DNA from: Thermococci archaeon | GTDB taxonomy: Archaea; Methanobacteriota_B; Thermococci; Thermococcales; Thermococcaceae | Length of the DNA stretch: 16,759 nt | Direction: 5' to 3' | Assembly (NCBI GenBank): GCA_003663535.1 | Contig: QMUE01000004.1 | Coordinates: 1 to 16,759, forward strand | Shown: in pieces, positions 2,653 through 14,645 of the stretch | How positions within the stretch are numbered: position 1 is the stretch's first letter | Layout: each line of letters opens with the position of its first letter | Notes under the pieces: generated by a model | Database searches by the model: none | What the model saw: the letters and a program-made list of their open reading frames with translations, nothing else | What the model was told of the DNA's origin: nothing | Made by a program: the position numbers and the translations under genes

Positions 2653-2661
2653 GTTTTATAA
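2653..2661 (-). promoter_or_regulatory. Candidate TATA box for the permease-ATPase operon
   Basis: On the minus strand TTATAAAAC lies across the stop codon of the GH130 frame. Its centre is about 26 bases upstream of the permease ATG at 2631, the usual TATA-to-start distance in archaea, so transcription would begin at or next to the ATG and give a leaderless message. This agrees with the missing ribosome site. The call rests on motif and spacing only. Confidence 0.45.
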
Positions 2662-3589
2662 GTCTGTTGTCCAGTATGCCAGACCGATATATCTGTCTGC
2701 CCCACCATAATACAGGAGGAGTTTGTTCTCGTGCTCTACCATGCCTTCAACAAAGACGACGTTGTTAACATGTCCATAGAGCTCCCATTCATACTCCGGA
2801 ACCATTATTGGGTTTTCAGTTCTTGCAATAACCCTATCTGGGGATTTTTTATCGAAAATCGCAACTCCCACTTTGTATTTTAGTCCATCCTTATATCTAC
2901 CAGCGCTGTTGTAAATTAAAGCTATTCCACTACTAATCTCGAACAAAGGAGGACCTGGTTCGACTAAAAACGTTATCAAAGTGTCCTCCTCTCGGAGATA
3001 GTACTGGCTCCTTTATGTACTCCCAGTTTATCAAGTCCCTCGAAACTGCCATCCAAATGTGAGAATCTCCAAAATACATGATATACTTACCTCTAAAATC
3101 TCCATCTCTAAGCTTCTCAGAAGGATTGATCCACTTTTTGTTCACCCCTTAATATTGTTTTTCTCATATTTGAAATCCTCAAATATTGGCCCATGTTTCT
3201 TCCACGTTAAGAGATTCTTTGATGTAGCCAAACACAATCTTGCAGTCTTGCCATCATAACCTGTGTACGTCATGTAATATGTTTTACCAACCTTTACTGC
3301 TCTCGGATCCTCAACACCAGCGCTTTCCCAGAGGTACTCTGGCTCTATCACCGGTTCTGGATGTCTAAAGAAATTGATGCCATCATAGCTTATTGCAAGT
3401 CCAATTCTACCAGTTAGATTATCCTTTTTGGATTCCGCCCTATAAAGCATAACTATTCTATCCTTCTCTTTAACAACTGCAGGATTGTAAATATTTCTTG
3501 AATCAAATCCTTCCCTTGATGGGGATAAAATGGGTTGAGGGATTTTTTGGAGGCTTTATATTGATTTTATTGCCCTCTATTCTGATCAT
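2656..3589 (-). pseudogene. GH130 family glycoside phosphorylase/glycosidase, broken by three single-base frameshifts
   Basis: Four reading-frame segments join into one protein of about 310 residues. It starts at an ATG at 3589 (MIRIEGNKINIKPP), continues at about 3555-3142 (NPAVVKEKDRIVMLYRAES, GVEDPRAVKVGKTYYMTYTG), then 3147-2933 (KYIMYFGDSHIWMAVSRDL, LSPRGGHFDN) and 2965-2656 (VEPGPPLFEISSGIALIYN, GHVNNVVFVEGM, LLYYGGAD). These are the blade motifs of the five-bladed GH130 propeller, in order. The implied changes are an extra A in the A6 run at 3543-3548, a missing G at the G4 run 3145-3148 and an extra T in the T5 run 2966-2970. Repairing all three gives 933 bases, an exact codon multiple. 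GH130 enzymes act on beta-mannosides, releasing mannose 1-phosphate by phosphorolysis or hydrolysing them; the substrate here is unknown. The start lies 4 bases after the debranching-type gene. Real decay and homopolymer sequencing errors cannot be separated from this sequence. Confidence 0.82.
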
Positions 3590-5530: not shown

Positions 5531-7015
5531 TTAAATAGAATGCAAAAGAATTTCGACTTCACGCTCTTTCTCCAAGTCTATGGCTCTAATGCCCCAGAGC
5601 CTTGCAACAAACTCTATTTCGCTTCTAAAATCTCCCGGAACTGCTGATAGGTGATTTGCACCCATAGCATTTAGGAACTTTTCTTTATCTAAGGGGTTTT
5701 TAATAGCTGTATGTGGCCATTGTCTTCCCCATTTTAGTTTAGATTCTATCTCTTCGTCTATTTCAACCCCTTCTGCAAGGAAATAAAGAAGGTAGTACTC
5801 ACCACCTTTTCTTATGAGTCTTGCAACGGTTAGCGTAGTCGGAGGTGTTCTATAGGTCAAAGCCCCTCCACCTGCTCCCTGACACTGGCCTTGAATTGTG
5901 GTGGCCCTTAGATTCTCTTCAGGATTCTCACTAAGTTTTGCGTAGTAAAGAGAAGAAGCTCCACAATTGGCTATTAGTACAAGGTCATCGTCTACATATT
6001 TAATGTCTCCAAAGAGAGGTGGTTTTCCACTTAAGTAGAAGAGCAACGCTGAACTTATCGTCCCTTTTATATCTCCTTCACACGTAGCTGGAATAACTGG
6101 TTTTTCACCCCTCACATCCCTGTTGAATGGAAAGAGAGCCGGAATCAAGCAAGCCATGACACCGTAAACTTCACTCAATTCTGGCTGGCATTTTATGGAA
6201 ACCGCAGCAGTTTCATCCTCATATTCACTCCATATGTCTTTAGCTGCCAAATATATCCCTATCTGCCTCTTCAAGGCCTCTGGGGTTAACATGGTATCAT
6301 CATATTCAATAGTTGCGTGTTTATGGAGCCAGTCAAAGAATTCTTCAATACGAACTCTCTTTTTCTCATCACTAAGCATCCAATCGGCCCTTTTTACTAT
6401 AAGATACTGATCTAAAAAGAGAAAATCTCCAATAAAGCGCTTTAACTGCGGTAGATCATCCATAAGATGTTCCATTCCAAGAGTATAAGGGGCCCCCCAA
6501 ATGAGTAAAGATTTTCTAGAGAGCTCTGATACTGCCTCAACTGCTCTTACCCAAGCTTTTGCTTTTTCAATATCGCCTTTAAGTCTTGTATGACACAAAG
6601 CATGATAATTCACAGCACTTTCCCAAAGAGAGGCACCAACAGAGGTTATACATGTAGTCCCGGCCCATGCGGGATCATCATCTGCATATAGGAGTAAGGG
6701 TTTGTTGACCTTTTTTGCTAATAGTGTTACAAGATTACTCTCTGTCCAATGCCATAACCCAATAATAACTCCACTAATATCCTGTGCTCCTATAAGCTTA
6801 GAGGCCTTTCTCACTTCTTCTTTGCTATCAACACCGAAGTTTTCACCGTTTTTTAATAAGTCATATTTTTTAAGGGCTCCATTCACATCAAAGACTGTGA
6901 ATCCAGAGGCCTCCAACTCATTTATAAGCGTTTTGTGTTTTTCAAGAAGAGCATTTTCTCTTTCTAAAGATAAGGATGTCTTTCGGGGGTCTGTAAAAGT
7001 TACAACAGCAAGCAT
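5531..7015 (-). CDS. L-fucose/L-arabinose isomerase family protein
   Basis: This 494-residue protein has the architecture of L-fucose-isomerase-like aldose-ketose isomerases. An N-terminal Rossmann-like part (GVIIGLWHWTESNLV at 82-96) is followed by a middle domain and a C-terminal beta-rich domain with QGQCQGAGGGALTYRTPPTTLTVARL split over 375-400. Three positions match the Mn2+ ligands of this fold: Glu313 in PATCEGDIKG, Asp337 in PLFGDIKY and His455 in GANHLSAVPGD. The metal site therefore looks intact and an isomerase reaction on a free sugar is likely, but the sugar cannot be named. The start has AGGTGAT five bases upstream. The gene follows malK after 63 bases that include a T-run and a TATA-like box, so it may head its own transcript with the debranching-type and GH130 genes. 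A kinase for its ketose product could be the divergent PfkB protein at 13710. Confidence 0.78.
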   Translation of the reverse strand: MLAVVTFTDPRKTSLSLERENALLEKHKTLINELEASGFTVFDVNGALKKYDLLKNGENFGVDSKEEVRKASKLIGAQDISGVIIGLWHWTESNLVTLLAKKVNKPLLLYADDDPAWAGTTCITSVGASLWESAVNYHALCHTRLKGDIEKAKAWVRAVEAVSELSRKSLLIWGAPYTLGMEHLMDDLPQLKRFIGDFLFLDQYLIVKRADWMLSDEKKRVRIEEFFDWLHKHATIEYDDTMLTPEALKRQIGIYLAAKDIWSEYEDETAAVSIKCQPELSEVYGVMACLIPALFPFNRDVRGEKPVIPATCEGDIKGTISSALLFYLSGKPPLFGDIKYVDDDLVLIANCGASSLYYAKLSENPEENLRATTIQGQCQGAGGGALTYRTPPTTLTVARLIRKGGEYYLLYFLAEGVEIDEEIESKLKWGRQWPHTAIKNPLDKEKFLNAMGANHLSAVPGDFRSEIEFVARLWGIRAIDLEKEREVEILLHSI

Positions 7016-8202: not shown

Positions 8203-9219
8203 TCACCCCAACATAAATTTTATTTCTCTGCTTTCATAATCTTCAATAACAGCAAAGATACCACCAACTTTTATTACACCATTTTCCGTCTCTAAGTGAA
8301 TGTTATTAACAGCCTCCCTAAAAGATAGAGTATATCCAACAACGTTACCATGAAGAGTTTCTGTCTCCCCAGTTTTCACGTTTTTACCGATCACTTCTGC
8401 CATTATCGGGATAGACTCTATATGCCTCTTGACAAAATCGGCAGCATGGAACATTGCAAAAAATCTAACATCCTGTGGGTTAGTGAGATATTCTTTCTCC
8501 AAGGAGGACTCCTTGAAAATCTCAATTATAAGACTATATTGGGAAAATATTACCTCTGGATAAGTTGCTTTAAAACTTGGAGGGAGGGTTGGCCTGAAAC
8601 TTATATTTTGAATATTTACAACCTCTTTACCATCTGCCATTCCAATTAAGTGATTTAGTTTATAAAACTGCCTTACAAAGAGATTCCCCACACCTTCGAA
8701 TCCCTTTAGATTGGGTATCTTATCAATATAGAGAGACACTGTCACTCCTTTTTCAAGAGTTTTTAATAAATCACTTTGAATATCCTCAAAAAACTCACTG
8801 GGAGTTACTACTATGACCTCGTTTTTTGCAGACCTTAGAGTTTCTCTAAACATCTCAAGGGCCTCTTCAAAACTTTGACTCCTCCATATCGCCGGCCTCT
8901 GTTCTTCGCGTTTAAACTTTTTAATCTCACTTTCTAGCTTCACCATTATGTTCTCAAGTTCTTTTTTAAACCTGAAAAAGGCTATCCTTGGGGAGTATGC
9001 TGCATAAATCCTAGGAGTTCCCTCAACTTCGGTCACAAAACCCCTAATTTTAAGTGATGAGATTGTGTCATAAACCCTATTGTATGGAATTCCGCTTTTA
9101 GTAGAAATTTCCTTCGCAGTGCTGGGCCCATGAACAAGAAGTGTCCAATAAGTCAAGATCTCATACTTCGTAAATCCAATTTCACTCAATGTGTGTAAGA
9201 TTTCAGGATGTATCTCCAT
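8203..9219 (-). CDS. trmB: TrmB, sugar-sensing transcriptional regulator of the trehalose/maltose transporter
   Basis: TrmB represses sugar-transport promoters and releases them when it binds its sugar. Residues 8-75 form the winged helix ([33 protein letters not shown]), 80-108 a coiled-coil linker, and 110-338 the ligand domain with a phospholipase-D-like fold. The four residues reported to contact the sugar in T. litoralis TrmB (Ser229, Asn305, Gly320, Glu326) are all present at the same numbers when translation starts at the ATG at 9219, giving 338 residues. That start is preceded by AGGTGA; a GTG three codons earlier is the weaker choice. The gene sits between treT and malK, the same place as in T. 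litoralis. Two matching operators lie in the malE-pfkB intergenic region. A maltose/trehalose-type ligand is likely. Confidence 0.95.
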
Positions 9220-9250
9220 ATCCGTCACCTGGAAAATATTGAAAAAGAAG

Positions 9251-10503: not shown

Positions 10504-11349
10504 TCATTTCTCTGTAGACCACCCTATCATACCACTTATGTAGTACTTCTGGAATAACGTATAAACCAGCAAGGGGACTAACATCACCATTATTGATGCA
10601 GCAGTCAATATCCCCCAATCAACAAAATATTGGCCTCTAAGAAGGGGTAATCTCTGAGTAGCCACATATTTCTCTGGATTTTGCAGAAAAACCAAGGCTA
10701 GGAAAAAGTCGCTCCAAACCCATGTAAATTGAAGTATTGCTGCAGATATCAATCCTGGAAGTGCCATTGGAAGAACTATTTTATAAAAAATCTTAAAATC
10801 AGATGCCCCATCTATCCTTGCAGCTTCTTCAACATCTGTAGGGAGCATTGAGAAGTAATTCCTCATAAAAAAGATTATCCAAGCCAATCCCCAAGCAGAA
10901 TGAACAAGGATTAACCCTTGAAATTTATTCAAGAGATGGAAATTCCTTAAAAGGAAGTACAGAGGCACTATGGTCATCTGTTGAGGCAGTGCCATTAAAA
11001 AAACTATAAACGCAAAGAGATAATGTTTTACTGGAAAACTGTATCTCGCAAAAGCATAAGCGGCCAATGCGGCTACTAAAAGCGGTGTAATTGTTGACGG
11101 GATCGCTATTATCAAAGAATTTCTAAGACCTTCACTTATTGGAAACATTGGATGGTTAAAAGCACCCACAAAATTCTTTAGAGTTATAGTAAATGGACTA
11201 AAGTGCCACCATCCACCTACTATTTCCCTATAAGGCCTTATTGAGGCCATAAGAACCCCTACAAAGGGTATTAACCAGATTACCCCCAAAATCCATGCAA
11301 TACTGTTTGAAATTATGAATTCTTTAAGCTTATATTTGGGTATATTCAT
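10504..11349 (-). CDS. malG: MalG-type sugar ABC transporter permease
   Basis: This 281-residue membrane protein has about six transmembrane helices (first near 12-34). It carries the CUT1 permease EAA loop EEAARIDGASDFKIFYKIVLP (about 175-195), which contacts MalK. A short cytoplasmic N-terminus, the periplasmic-side loop IRPYREIVGGWWHFSPF and the C-terminal FQKYYISGMIGWSTEK are typical of the MalG partner. The start is the only good one: GGAGGAGG lies a few bases upstream, inside the last codons of malF, and the genes are separated by a single base. Together with MalF it forms the channel of the importer. In-frame family identity is clear; the sugar specificity is not readable from this subunit. 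Confidence 0.93.
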   Translation of the reverse strand: MNIPKYKLKEFIISNSIAWILGVIWLIPFVGVLMASIRPYREIVGGWWHFSPFTITLKNFVGAFNHPMFPISEGLRNSLIIAIPSTITPLLVAALAAYAFARYSFPVKHYLFAFIVFLMALPQQMTIVPLYFLLRNFHLLNKFQGLILVHSAWGLAWIIFFMRNYFSMLPTDVEEAARIDGASDFKIFYKIVLPMALPGLISAAILQFTWVWSDFFLALVFLQNPEKYVATQRLPLLRGQYFVDWGILTAASIMVMLVPLLVYTLFQKYYISGMIGWSTEK

Positions 11350-11350
11350 T

Positions 11351-12232
11351 TTACTCCCTCCTCCGGATTAACCATAAAGCCGGGATAAGTGTTAACGTGG
11401 TCAACAAAACTGCCACCACTGCGGCATAATTGTAGTTAAGGGCCCTTGCGAAATAGTCCCACATTTGAAGTGCAAGCACCATTGAAGCACCGCCAGGACC
11501 ACCTCCCGTGGCTACATAGACAACATCAAATATCTTAAGATCCCATAGAAGGGTCATTGCCACAACCACAATTGTTATTGGTTTCAATAGGGGCCATGTT
11601 ACGTTTTTAAATATCTGGAAGCGATTAGCTCCATCTATCAATGCTGCTTCATAGTAATCTTTTGGTATTGACGCTAATCCAGCTGAGTACATTAACATGC
11701 TAAAACCAGTCCATATCCAAATTGAACCCAAAATTGCTGCAAATAGAGCAGTTTTTGGGTATGCTGTCCAGGTAATTGCTAACCCTTCAATCCCTAATGC
11801 TTTAAATATGGCAGGTATAACACCGGCACCTTCTTCGAAAAGAAAGCGGATGATTAAGCCCCCAACGATCATTGGGATTACCATGCCCAAGAAGACTATT
11901 GACTTGATTACAGAGGCACCTTTAATTTCTTTCCCCCTTAATAAAAGTGCAATTCCTAGTCCCAAAAATACAGTAGCCGGAAGATGAATCGCTATCCACA
12001 CTACGTTATGAATAAGGGCGCCCCAAGGAGGAGAGTTAGTGGGAAATCTATCAAGGTTTACAATGTCCGGGCTCAAAAGAACATTTTTATAGTTTTCTAA
12101 CCCTACAAACTTGTCATCTAGAAAGAAACTAAGATACACAGTCTTAAATACAGGATATATAACAAATGGAACCATTAAAATCAAGGCTGGTAAAAGAAAA
12201 AAGAGAGGAGTCAAAGATTTAGACTTTCTCAT
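11351..12232 (-). CDS. malF: MalF-type sugar ABC transporter permease
   Basis: This 293-residue permease is the first of the pair. It begins MRKSKSLTPLFFLLPALILM with the first membrane helix near 8-30. The EAA loop YEAALIDGANRFQIFKNVTWP lies in the C-terminal third, followed by ATGGGPGGASMVLALQMWDY, a conserved CUT1 MalF/UgpA-family segment. An ATG 13 codons upstream would overlap the binding-protein gene by 26 bases. The ATG at 12232 is preferred because GGGGGAT sits 7-8 bases upstream and the gap to the previous stop is 13 bases. The protein is shorter than E. coli MalF (514 residues), which carries a large extra periplasmic loop; lengths near 295 are normal for archaeal relatives. Confidence 0.93.
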   Translation of the reverse strand: MRKSKSLTPLFFLLPALILMVPFVIYPVFKTVYLSFFLDDKFVGLENYKNVLLSPDIVNLDRFPTNSPPWGALIHNVVWIAIHLPATVFLGLGIALLLRGKEIKGASVIKSIVFLGMVIPMIVGGLIIRFLFEEGAGVIPAIFKALGIEGLAITWTAYPKTALFAAILGSIWIWTGFSMLMYSAGLASIPKDYYEAALIDGANRFQIFKNVTWPLLKPITIVVVAMTLLWDLKIFDVVYVATGGGPGGASMVLALQMWDYFARALNYNYAAVVAVLLTTLTLIPALWLIRRRE

Positions 12233-12245
12233 TAAGATCCCCCTT

Positions 12246-13487
12246 TCATTCTTTTGGGAACTTTTCATCAAGTGTCTTTAGAATCTCATCCAATCTATCC
12301 GGTTGTACCCACAGAAGTTTTAATTGATCCCAGAATGCCTTCTGCCATTCTCCTCCAACACTATCGTCCAAATCTGGTGCTGACTCAACGTTAGCAACCA
12401 CTTTGGCAACATCCTTCATTGGCTCCCAGTAATCATCCATTGTAACTTCCTTCCATGTCGCAAGTTTTCCAGAGCTAGTGCCAACGTGAATCCTTTGTCC
12501 TTCTGTAGCTATAAACTTGGCAAGTTCTAATGCTTCATTTGGATGACTTGTATACTTTGGCACCATGAAGTAATCTGGGGCGAGAACCATTGCCTTAACT
12601 CCTGGGAGTGATATTAGTCCGAGGTCAGTGGGATCATCTACCATACCTGTTAACCACGTTCCCATGAAGTAAAGTGCGTATTCTCCTTTCCACCATAACT
12701 CTACAGCAGACGTCCATTCAATCGGATCACTGAAATATCCAGCCTCTAGAAGTGGTACAAGTCTTTCTTCAAATATGCTCCTCACCTGCGGGTCTTGCCA
12801 CTTAACTTCGCCATTTATAAGTTTCTGTTGGAGTTCTGCCCCACCAAAAGTCATGATAAAGTGCTCAGTTACATCAGAAAGCGGCCATCCAACGCTGTCT
12901 CCACTAACTATTGGTGCTTTTATTCCAGGTATTTGTTTTATTTGTTCAAGCAATTTCACGAATTCATCCCATGTTTCGGGTGGTGTTAAACCATGTTCTT
13001 CAAAGAAGGACTTTCTATACCAGAAACCTGGCTTAGCTGCTGCAGTAAATGGTGCTCCATAGATTTTTCCATCAACTGTAACTGTGTCTAGAATCCCGGG
13101 AACATATTCATCTGGATTGATAATTTGGCCTAGTTCCATTACATGGCCTTTTGTACCCATGTCTGCAATGAACCATCCCCACATGAAGATCAAGTCTGCA
13201 GGAGTATCTCCCGACTCAAATTGCAATGGTAAAATTGTTGAAAGGTCTTCAGCTCTATAGGTCTTGTATTCAACCTTTATATCCGGATGCTCGGCTTCAA
13301 ATGCCTTGATAACCTCATTGAAAGCATCAAGCTCAGCTCCAGACCATGGGCCTATTACTTTCAAAGTAATTTGTTCTACAGTTGTAGTTTGAGTAGTAGT
13401 TTCACCGCCAATACACCCACTTGCCACAACTGCTACTGCCAAAACTCCTACCAACAAAAAACTAAACAACATTTTCTCCGTCTTCAT
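12246..13487 (-). CDS. Sugar ABC transporter substrate-binding lipoprotein (MalE/UgpB class)
   Basis: This 413-residue extracellular binding protein delivers sugar to the MalF/MalG pair. A lipoprotein-like signal is clear: MKTEK, a hydrophobic stretch, then VVASGCIGG with the acylatable Cys25 and a Thr-rich linker (ETTTQTTTVEQ) typical of Thermococcales. The mature part is a cluster-1 solute-binding fold (FNEVIKAFEAEHPDIKVEY; DLIFMWGWFIADMG; KIYGAPF; GEYALYFMGTWLTGM). It is Trp-rich, as sugar clefts are. It does not closely match my memory of the T. litoralis trehalose/maltose-binding protein, so it looks like another subfamily. The frame extends 18 codons further upstream, but the ATG at 13487 follows a GAGGTGTC ribosome site and starts the signal peptide. 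A TATA box overlapping a TrmB-type operator lies just upstream. Confidence 0.9.
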   Translation of the reverse strand: MKTEKMLFSFLLVGVLAVAVVASGCIGGETTTQTTTVEQITLKVIGPWSGAELDAFNEVIKAFEAEHPDIKVEYKTYRAEDLSTILPLQFESGDTPADLIFMWGWFIADMGTKGHVMELGQIINPDEYVPGILDTVTVDGKIYGAPFTAAAKPGFWYRKSFFEEHGLTPPETWDEFVKLLEQIKQIPGIKAPIVSGDSVGWPLSDVTEHFIMTFGGAELQQKLINGEVKWQDPQVRSIFEERLVPLLEAGYFSDPIEWTSAVELWWKGEYALYFMGTWLTGMVDDPTDLGLISLPGVKAMVLAPDYFMVPKYTSHPNEALELAKFIATEGQRIHVGTSSGKLATWKEVTMDDYWEPMKDVAKVVANVESAPDLDDSVGGEWQKAFWDQLKLLWVQPDRLDEILKTLDEKFPKE

Positions 13488-13509: not shown

Positions 13510-13524
13510 TATACTAAAAGTATA
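13510..13524. promoter_or_regulatory. TrmB operator overlapping the transporter promoter
   Basis: The sequence TATACT-AAA-AGTATA is a perfect palindrome with 6-base arms around a 3-base centre. Its core (13512-13522) is TACT-N3-AGTA, the operator form described for TrmB at the trehalose/maltose operon of T. litoralis. It sits on the downstream edge of the TATA box, a repressing position, and the trmB gene is in the operon it would control. The match is read directly; binding is inferred. Confidence 0.75.
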
Positions 13525-13530
13525 TATATC
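13521..13530 (-). promoter_or_regulatory. TATA box of the transporter operon
   Basis: On the minus strand GATATATATA is centred about 38 bases before the binding-protein ATG. A start site about 26 bases downstream (near 13500) leaves a short leader that holds GAGGTGTC. It overlaps the TACT-N3-AGTA palindrome, so a bound repressor would block TBP. Confidence 0.7.
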
Positions 13531-13591
13531 TTACTGCCCAAATATGTGTGTATATCTGGAGTTACGCATTCCTTATACTTACAAAAAGGTG

Positions 13592-13609
13592 CTAAAAATC
13601 CCCTTTTAG
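13592..13609. repeat. Inverted repeat between the two divergent promoters
   Basis: CTAAAA and TTTTAG face each other across six bases (ATCCCC), with more scattered outer matches. It lies midway between the two TrmB-type operators. It could be an activator or second-repressor site, or chance in AT-rich DNA. Nothing else was recognised in the rest of 13531-13640. Confidence 0.3.
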
Positions 13610-13642
13610 TGACATCTTCAAAAAGTCAAATAAATGATAAGA

Positions 13643-13662
13643 AGTATTTACTTTAAGTATAA
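13643..13662 (+). promoter_or_regulatory. Candidate pfkB promoter with embedded TrmB operator
   Basis: A second exact TACT-N3-AGTA site (TACT-TTA-AGTA, 13649-13659) overlaps the TATA-like TTTAAGTATAA (13652-13662). A start about 26 bases on, near 13683, would give a leader of about 27 bases with the ribosome site GAGGGGGAT. A further AGTA half-site lies at 13643-13646. A competing TATA at 13674-13679 (TTTAAA) would place the start inside the ribosome site and is less attractive. Confidence 0.6.
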
Positions 13663-13709
13663 CAAAGAAAAACTTTAAACATTTATGAGTATCCTAGAGG
13701 GGGATTAGC

Positions 13710-14645
13710 ATGATATTTTCAATAGGAGAAGTCTTGATAGACTTTATTGCGAAAGAGGAGGGAGCATTAAAAGATGTCATAGAATTCGAAAAACATCCTG
13801 GAGGAGCCCCAGCAAATGTTAGCGTTGGGTTAGCAAGATTAGGCGTCAAATGTGCCTTGATAAGTAAAGTAGGGGCTGACTCCTTTGGAGAATTCCTTAT
13901 CAATGCCCTTGAACGAGAAGGTGTGGAAATCAAGTACATTTCTCAAGATATTGAAAAGCACACAGGAATAGTTTTTGTCCAGTTAATAGGTGCAAAACCA
14001 GAATTCATACTTTATGATGGGGTGGCCTATTTCAACATGAAGCTTGAAGATATAATGGTAGATATAGAGAGTGCAACTCTCATTCATTTTGGTAATGTTC
14101 TTTTCGCAAGAGAACCCAGTAGATCCACATTATTTGAAATACTAAACAAGGCCAAAGGAAAGGTTCCCATTAGTTACGATGTTAACATAAGACTTGATCT
14201 TTGGAAAGGAAAAGAGGATGCCATGTTTAAAGACATAGAACACGCTCTAAAACTGGCAGACCTAGTGAAAATAGGAGACGAAGAGGTGGAATATCTGCAA
14301 AAAAATGGATTCAACCTAAATGACTTTGATTTCAAACTGATTGCAATAACCAAAGGTGCAAAAGGAAGCACAATAATTCACAGGGAAATAAAGGTAGAAG
14401 TTCCTTCTTACAAGGTAAAGCCTACTGATACAACAGGAGCTGGAGATGCGTATATGGCAGCCCTTTTGGCCTCTTTGAGTTACATGAACAAGTTAAAAAC
14501 ACTAGAATTCTCAAAGAACGAGCTAGAAGAGATCGGGCGTTTCTCAAATTTAGTAGCTGCCCTCTCAACAACAAAAAGAGGAGCCTGGAGCGTACCCACT
14601 TTAGAAGAGCTCAAACATTATGGGAAGTTTCAATTTCTTCCTTAG
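13710..14645 (+). CDS. PfkB/ribokinase-family sugar kinase, probable ATP-dependent fructokinase
   Basis: This 311-residue cytoplasmic kinase transfers phosphate from ATP to a sugar hydroxyl. Both family signatures are present: GGAPANVSVGLARLG (31-45) and DTTGAGDAYMAALLASL (240-256), with Asp246 as catalytic base and the GAGD anion hole. The IGEVLIDFIA start and HPGGAPAN segment are those of the fructokinase branch, to which the characterised T. litoralis fructokinase belongs. 2-Keto-3-deoxygluconate or another ketose is the main alternative. The start has GAGGGGGAT upstream. It is divergent from the transporter operon and shares its TrmB-type operator sequence. This is notable because Thermococcales phosphorylate glucose with an ADP-dependent kinase and need fructokinase only for a free ketose. 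Its 3' end overlaps the opposing membrane-protein gene by 35 bases. Confidence 0.88.
   Translation: MIFSIGEVLIDFIAKEEGALKDVIEFEKHPGGAPANVSVGLARLGVKCALISKVGADSFGEFLINALEREGVEIKYISQDIEKHTGIVFVQLIGAKPEFILYDGVAYFNMKLEDIMVDIESATLIHFGNVLFAREPSRSTLFEILNKAKGKVPISYDVNIRLDLWKGKEDAMFKDIEHALKLADLVKIGDEEVEYLQKNGFNLNDFDFKLIAITKGAKGSTIIHREIKVEVPSYKVKPTDTTGAGDAYMAALLASLSYMNKLKTLEFSKNELEEIGRFSNLVAALSTTKRGAWSVPTLEELKHYGKFQFLP

Follow-up and report, generated by a model that had tools for sequence, protein, structure and literature searches.

TrmB is a model sugar repressor of Archaea and, as far as the available text of the sources goes, has so far been understood as one dimer on one promoter. The review of the system (PMC4158304, cited here from part of its text, as are the papers below) places its site, TACT-N3-AGTA, at the BRE/TATA of malE, where repression is relieved by maltose and trehalose. 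An earlier note on the DNA described here had given this palindrome as the literature operator of TrmB at the trehalose/maltose (TM) operon, in agreement with the review. TrmB is described therein as a dimer, with no tetramer in the available text; Y50 and D51 contact the DNA, and G320 and E326 contact the sugar. TrmBL1 is a paralogue from the TrmB family that acts on the TGM (TATCAC-N5-GTGATA) of the Thermococcales glycolytic regulon, and the placement of the site sets activation or repression: sites downstream of promoters repressed nine of nine templates, and upstream sites activated two of three in vitro (PMC4706686). One such site may serve a divergent pair, as for PF1538-1535 and PF1539 (PMC4706686). 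The present locus differs from this system, since an exact TGM within 500 bp upstream is lacking at all 58 kinase genes considered below, and TGM control of the kinase is thereby rejected.

An ATP-dependent fructokinase of the ribokinase family with fructose as its substrate is described from T. litoralis (Qu, Lee and Boos 2004, via PMC4412284, part of the text). It comes from the species whose TM locus shares the layout found here and is a candidate for the kinase of this locus. The available text of the TrmB review contains no word beginning with kinase or fructokinase, and a kinase-side TrmB site is not stated in the available text of that review or of PMC4706686, PMC6640164, PMC2246101, PMC4412284, PMC11046441, PMC3750489, and PMC11519228. 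Genome-wide ChIP-seq and the mapping of transcription start sites were done in P. furiosus strains that had lost the island (PMC4706686, PMC6640164, from the parts available); hence, these studies could not have shown a second operator. Such an operator, if true, would change the one-dimer picture, and it is also found at the T. litoralis-type locus, the one at which TrmB was first investigated. It would also add a sugar kinase to the regulon, and the operator pair lends itself to a simple test of cooperation between archaeal repressors over distance.

The window, meaning the whole stretch of 16,759 nucleotides that was analysed, resembles the malE TM operon of P. furiosus and T. litoralis by having the same palindrome, operator 1 at the TATA box, and the cognate trmB in the operon (PMC4158304). 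It differs in that the available text of this review gives the malE site only, whereas the window adds an operator 2 upstream of the kinase BRE, and in that its transporter proteins belong to a different cassette from the MalEFG of the TM operon. The presence of trmB in the cluster, as claimed in the earlier note, is borne out by an NF040851 score of 640, above the cutoff of 600, and the encoded protein keeps Y50/D51 and G320/E326 of P. furiosus TrmB (3QPH alignment, positions counted by eye). The features needed below are as follows.

5531..7015, minus strand: protein with a fucose-isomerase C domain (domain match), within the transporter cluster.

8203..9228, minus strand: trmB, the cognate regulator (NCBIfam NF040851, 640.3 bits, cutoff 600).

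12246..13487, minus strand: ABC sugar-binding protein, matching 1EU8 only at E 9e-6; not the ortholog of T. litoralis MalE.

13512..13522, no strand assigned: predicted operator 1, TACTAAAAGTA, at −35..−25 of the binding-protein gene, overlapping the 3' end of the TATA box.

13521..13529, minus strand: TATA box of the transporter operon, TATATATA, read from the sequence with malE as precedent (PMC4158304, in part).

13649..13659, no strand assigned: predicted operator 2, TACTTTAAGTA, at −61..−51 of the kinase gene.

13667..13682, plus strand: best kinase BRE/TATA, GAAAAACTTTAAACAT, at −43..−28, with 8.4 bits by the profile trained on G079.

13710..14645, plus strand: PfkB-family sugar kinase, fructokinase-like, 311 aa, with PH1459 as its nearest solved relative.

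The divergent intergenic region that holds both operators comprises 222 bases. A scan with the exact pattern finds exactly two matches to TACTNNNAGTA in the whole window, at 13512-13522 and 13649-13659. Both are exact copies of the perfect palindrome TACT-N3-AGTA, and they lie 137 bp apart from start to start. The scan thus confirms the earlier note, which had listed these two copies and no further one; its placement of operator 1 on the transporter TATA box also holds. The overlap with BRE/TATA that marks a TrmB operator is found at this position; operator 2 shows none with the best kinase BRE/TATA. By chance, 0.18 exact 11-mers would be expected in the window on average, and at least two are found in 6 of 200 shuffles; with one mismatch permitted, nine matches compare with 6.4 expected. 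Genome-wide in G000 (1.65 Mb), the bare 11-mer occurs at 23 places versus 45 for the reversed control pattern. The 11-mer alone is therefore weak evidence, and conservation decides.

For this purpose, kinase relatives were collected from 94 genomes of the family at a threshold of 55% identity, and 58 of the 59 obtained were used. G051 was dropped, as its N terminus is missing, and the listed relatives of at most 38% identity were left out. The 500 bases upstream of each kinase were scanned, or less where the contig ended. At 16 of the 58 loci the kinase directly faces a binding-protein gene, of which two (G083, 74 aa; G082, 25 aa) have only the start of that gene on the contig. Both sites are present in all 16, which is the outcome of the check proposed in the earlier note, namely motif conservation in orthologous intergenic regions. 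Herein, the malE-side site is exact throughout. The kinase-side site is exact in 11 loci (G000, G083, G079, G074, G078, G077, G082, G081, G075, G002, and G053) and carries one mismatch in five (G076, G080, G084, G064, and a partial G047 copy). At the remaining 42 kinase loci, which lack this facing arrangement, no exact site occurs within 500 bp. A fucose-isomerase-like gene directly faces the kinase in 22 of these, and in a partial G064 copy among them a distant binding-protein gene (25–27%) faces the kinase from 1.4 kb away, with no operator.

The extended motif TWTACTTTWAGTAYA, derived from the window's own two sites, has 63 matches in the 94 genomes compared with one for the reversed control, and 58 of the 63 are located in intergenic regions of transporter clusters. 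Within the genus (13 genomes), it matches 22 times (control, 0), with 20 matches in this one intergenic region and the remaining two representing one common site inside an ORF of G000 and G083. The five of the 63 sites that lie elsewhere were not taken as further TrmB targets; three are inside ORFs (G000, G083, and G007). The sites L200:1349 (G016) and L201:1577 (G073) are found outside TrmB clusters and not in an ORF of at least 110 aa. In G081 (L141), both operators are exact, yet its cluster has no malG, treT, or trmB match, and TrmB was not found in this genome at E 1e-60.

Both sites of the window are predicted, from their sequence and conservation, to be TrmB operators, which we consider very likely. 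That operator 2 is instead a functionless palindrome in AT-rich promoter DNA, arisen by chance or in decay, is highly improbable. The frequency of the bare 11-mer in the genome, the mismatch in 5 of 16 copies of operator 2, and the sites kept in G081 without a detectable TrmB would agree with such a palindrome; the retention of the site, exact or with one mismatch, at every one of the 16 facing loci despite divergence of the DNA in between, and the near confinement of the extended motif to transporter clusters would not.

The position of operator 2 relative to the kinase promoter was assessed with a BRE/TATA profile trained on 118 Shine-Dalgarno-bearing upstream regions of G079. All 16 facing loci, close relatives included, have the best profile window of the last 150 nt between positions −43 and −48, while 6% of best windows per locus would be expected by chance in the zone −49 to −42. 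In the window, seven bases separate operator 2 from the predicted kinase BRE downstream of it. The claim of the earlier note that operator 2 sits on the probable kinase TATA box is therefore not upheld, as the profile puts the BRE/TATA downstream and the operator just upstream of it. Operator 2 itself was rejected as the kinase TATA box, with profile windows that share at least six bases with it scoring at most 0.24 bits over the 16 loci. Windows touching it by at least one base reach at most 4.3 bits, compared with 2.8–10.2 for the downstream element. The argument rests on the conserved position, because shuffles often reach the score of this element, the share whose best window equals it ranging from 1% (G064) to 87% (G002, where the kinase promoter is weak with 2.8 bits). 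The profile is modest and gave the malE-type TATA box only 2–5 bits in most loci, so that a weak second TATA box at operator 2 may remain. In P. furiosus, 23 bp separate the last TATA adenine from the start site, and 5' UTRs have a median length of 13 nt (PMC6640164, in part); with this spacing, the kinase 5' UTR would be about 8 nt long, or about 25–28 nt were operator 2 the TATA box.

The gap from operator 2 to the BRE/TATA is 6–16 bp in 14 of the 16 loci, 24 in G002, and 117 in G053, with individual values of 6, 7, 11, 13, 14, 16, 24, and 117 bp among the lineages; the distance to the kinase ATG ranges from 61 to 173. Operators on the transporter side have their first base between −34 and −49; wherever a TATA box could be resolved with the profile, they overlap it or come after it. 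A trmB-side operator is also placed far out in G058 and G067 (−80..−70).

A location upstream of BRE/TATA would also suit an activating site, at which TrmB would turn the kinase on without sugar, opposite to the earlier note. The paralogue TrmBL1 provides the model, as its upstream sites activate in the in vitro experiments cited above and of seven TrmBL1 units with an upstream site, six are upregulated under gluconeogenic conditions (PMC4706686, in part). The variable distance between operator 2 and BRE/TATA (6 to 117 bp), however, fits a contact activator poorly, the kinase is elsewhere found behind operators placed for repression, and the available text of PMC4158304 describes TrmB only as a repressor. 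We hold activation to be quite improbable.

Operator 2 keeps its distance to operator 1 more strictly than its distance to the kinase promoter. Among the 11 exact pairs, some of which are close relatives, ten show 137–138 bp, and G002 shows 103. The five pairs with an imperfect operator 2 have spacings of 140 (three), 131 (G064), and 137 bp. In distant lineages, the similarity of the DNA separating the operators is at the level of shuffled sequence (G000 versus G074, 0.55, shuffled 0.58; G074 versus G053, 0.55, shuffled 0.55), whereas nearer relatives retain some resemblance (G074 versus G078, 0.71, shuffled 0.59; G000 versus G076, 0.72, shuffled 0.60). In G053, the kinase promoter is 117 bp away from operator 2, yet the two operators keep a distance of 138 bp. 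An additional stretch of about 105 bp separates operator 2 from the kinase promoter at this locus (L145:3847-4014); it contains repeats of the post-operator sequence AGTATAAACAC and looks as if it arose from local duplication. The near-fixed distance at which both sites are kept suggests a pair and not one switch per gene; it could instead reflect low indel rates.

Our preferred reading, tentative and given somewhat less than an even chance, is that a paired TrmB operator governs the transporter promoter and probably also the kinase, which describes the locus better than one operator per TATA box. By analogy to the malE operator, a TrmB dimer on operator 1 would block the transporter TATA box when sugar is absent. 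Operator 2, which lies at a distance of about 137 bp and just before the kinase BRE, would hold a second dimer. Through cooperative binding, looping, or a wider repressive complex, this dimer would strengthen the occupancy or the repression of the transporter promoter. Operator 2 would bring the kinase promoter under TrmB as well, and the transported sugar would free TrmB and allow both the transporter and the kinase units to be expressed. Binding of TrmB to operator 2, joint action of the two sites, and induction of the kinase by sugar are what we infer from sequence. Looping has no structural basis yet, since TrmB is described as a dimer without a tetramer. Helical phasing was rejected as looping evidence, with Rayleigh p values of 0.49–0.55 for the eight lineage spacings at six pitches of 10.3–10.8. 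The deviating spacings of G002 and G064, the transporter promoters with a single exact operator, the sites kept in G081, and the six unlinked kinases described below also speak against the preferred reading.

Exact second operators are found without an adjacent kinase as well. In G007, the site lies 148 bp away, past the end of a co-directional gene with a CoA-binding domain; in G011, it lies 147 bp away with no ORF of at least 50 aa there and one mismatch in operator 1. The site in G030 (110 bp) is accompanied by a co-directional upstream ORF, and the one in G006 (126 bp) faces an ORF of the formamidase family, which begins at Pfam position 56, so that its start looks missing or shifted in the assembly. 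Considering the loci without a facing gene, three of ten have an exact second site compared with 0.007 expected per locus, G007 and G011 being relatives. Six further genomes (G018, G020, G038, G039, G043, and G009) have one exact site and one-mismatch second sites within 250 bp that are individually not significant. G021 has one exact operator and no second site within 250 bp even with one mismatch, and the transporter promoter also bears a single exact operator in G056, G066, G093, and one G058 cluster. In L155, L156, and L157 (G038, G039, and G043), TACTTATGGTA is located 191–193 bp upstream of the single exact operator and is possibly a degenerate second operator; a TrmB-like gene is co-directional and upstream in these genomes.

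The second operators beside other genes (G007, G030, and G006) or beside no ORF of at least 50 aa (G011) would be expected if operator 2 were an auxiliary upstream operator of the transporter promoter only and the kinase a bystander. The tie of the spacing to operator 1 and the unlinked kinases without an exact operator in six genomes with TrmB clusters point the same way. Against a bystander kinase, 14 of the 16 loci have the end of operator 2 within 6–16 bp of the predicted kinase BRE, a kinase stands behind a TrmB-type operator in several other clusters, and the divergent genes of the treT-type clusters and of G086 each have an operator shortly before the start codon. We regard it as unlikely.

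The treT-type clusters, 11 in number, contain two operators 192–200 bp apart between treT-trmB and the transporter genes, and each operator is located 15–49 bases before its own start codon, where readable. A second operator hence need not mean joint action.

In the bacterial lac and gal systems, a single promoter is flanked by two operators whose distance can reach a few hundred base pairs. A wider form of the preferred reading, which we find rather doubtful, is that Thermococcales sugar-transport operons are under a paired TrmB operator that acts via a higher-order complex (loop or bridge), as an archaeal counterpart of the lac/gal type, and couples divergent genes, the fructokinase among them. 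Under this wider form, a second site 100–150 bp upstream would be kept in many clusters whatever the neighbouring gene, and the operator distance would be near-constant within the kinase-facing group. The likeness to lac and gal is limited in that TrmB is described as a dimer (PMC4158304, in part) and the spacings show no helical phasing.

As to the kinase gene, its isomerase-like partner and the kinase form a recurring pair, and both are found inside TrmB clusters elsewhere; together, they may form an isomerase-fructokinase route. In G086, the kinase is located directly behind a DUF2139 gene, and this gene and the transporter bear operators at −35 and −37. In G013, G090, G048, G071, and others, the kinase follows the transporter genes on the same strand, behind a promoter with a TrmB-type operator; these clusters have the two operators 192–200 bp apart between treT-trmB and the transporter genes. 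G006, G007, G011, G021, G038, and G043 have a TrmB cluster, and their kinase is located elsewhere and faces the isomerase gene. The unlinked kinase in these six genomes has no exact operator within 500 bp; hence, the kinase is not a general TrmB target. Of the earlier note's claim that the kinase belongs to the TrmB regulon, a narrower part is plausible: judged by the conserved sites and by the linked kinases behind operators, TrmB may control those kinases that are linked to the cluster, and the six unlinked kinases without an exact operator speak against more.

Such control could also be exerted separately, with operator 2 as an independent repressor site of the kinase, at which TrmB would block this gene until the same sugar frees it. 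Operator 2 is kinase-proximal in all 16 facing loci, the partner isomerase belongs to the transporter cluster, and kinases elsewhere follow operators placed for repression, such as those of G086, all of which would fit. An independent site is nevertheless rather improbable, as operator 2 is located upstream of BRE/TATA, unlike the transporter operators on or after the TATA box, exact second operators occur without an adjacent kinase, and operator 2 of G053 keeps its distance to operator 1 and not to the kinase promoter. Within the preferred reading of a paired operator, induction of the kinase by the transporter's sugar would be one of several outcomes and is uncertain.

The inducing sugar is likewise uncertain, because the binding protein of the window is not the trehalose/maltose-binding protein. 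The window was rejected as the characterised trehalose/maltose transporter, given the E value of 9e-6 to 1EU8 and malF and malG products only 34% and 31% identical to those of G078. G078 is the T. litoralis-type locus: its binding protein matches 1EU8, and both operators 1 and 2 are present. G078 and G075 have T. litoralis-type MalEFG at this position next to the same pair of operators, and G077 has a T. litoralis-type MalE. Unlike the permeases, treT, trmB, malK, and the kinase are 74–85% identical between the window and G078. As read from these sequences, the transporter cassette (window 10504-13487) is exchanged between relatives while the control region stayed. At the other end of the window, a GH130 phosphorylase gene (2656-3450) is apparently split into the ORFs 2656-2979 and 3142-3450, which match different parts of the Pfam model.
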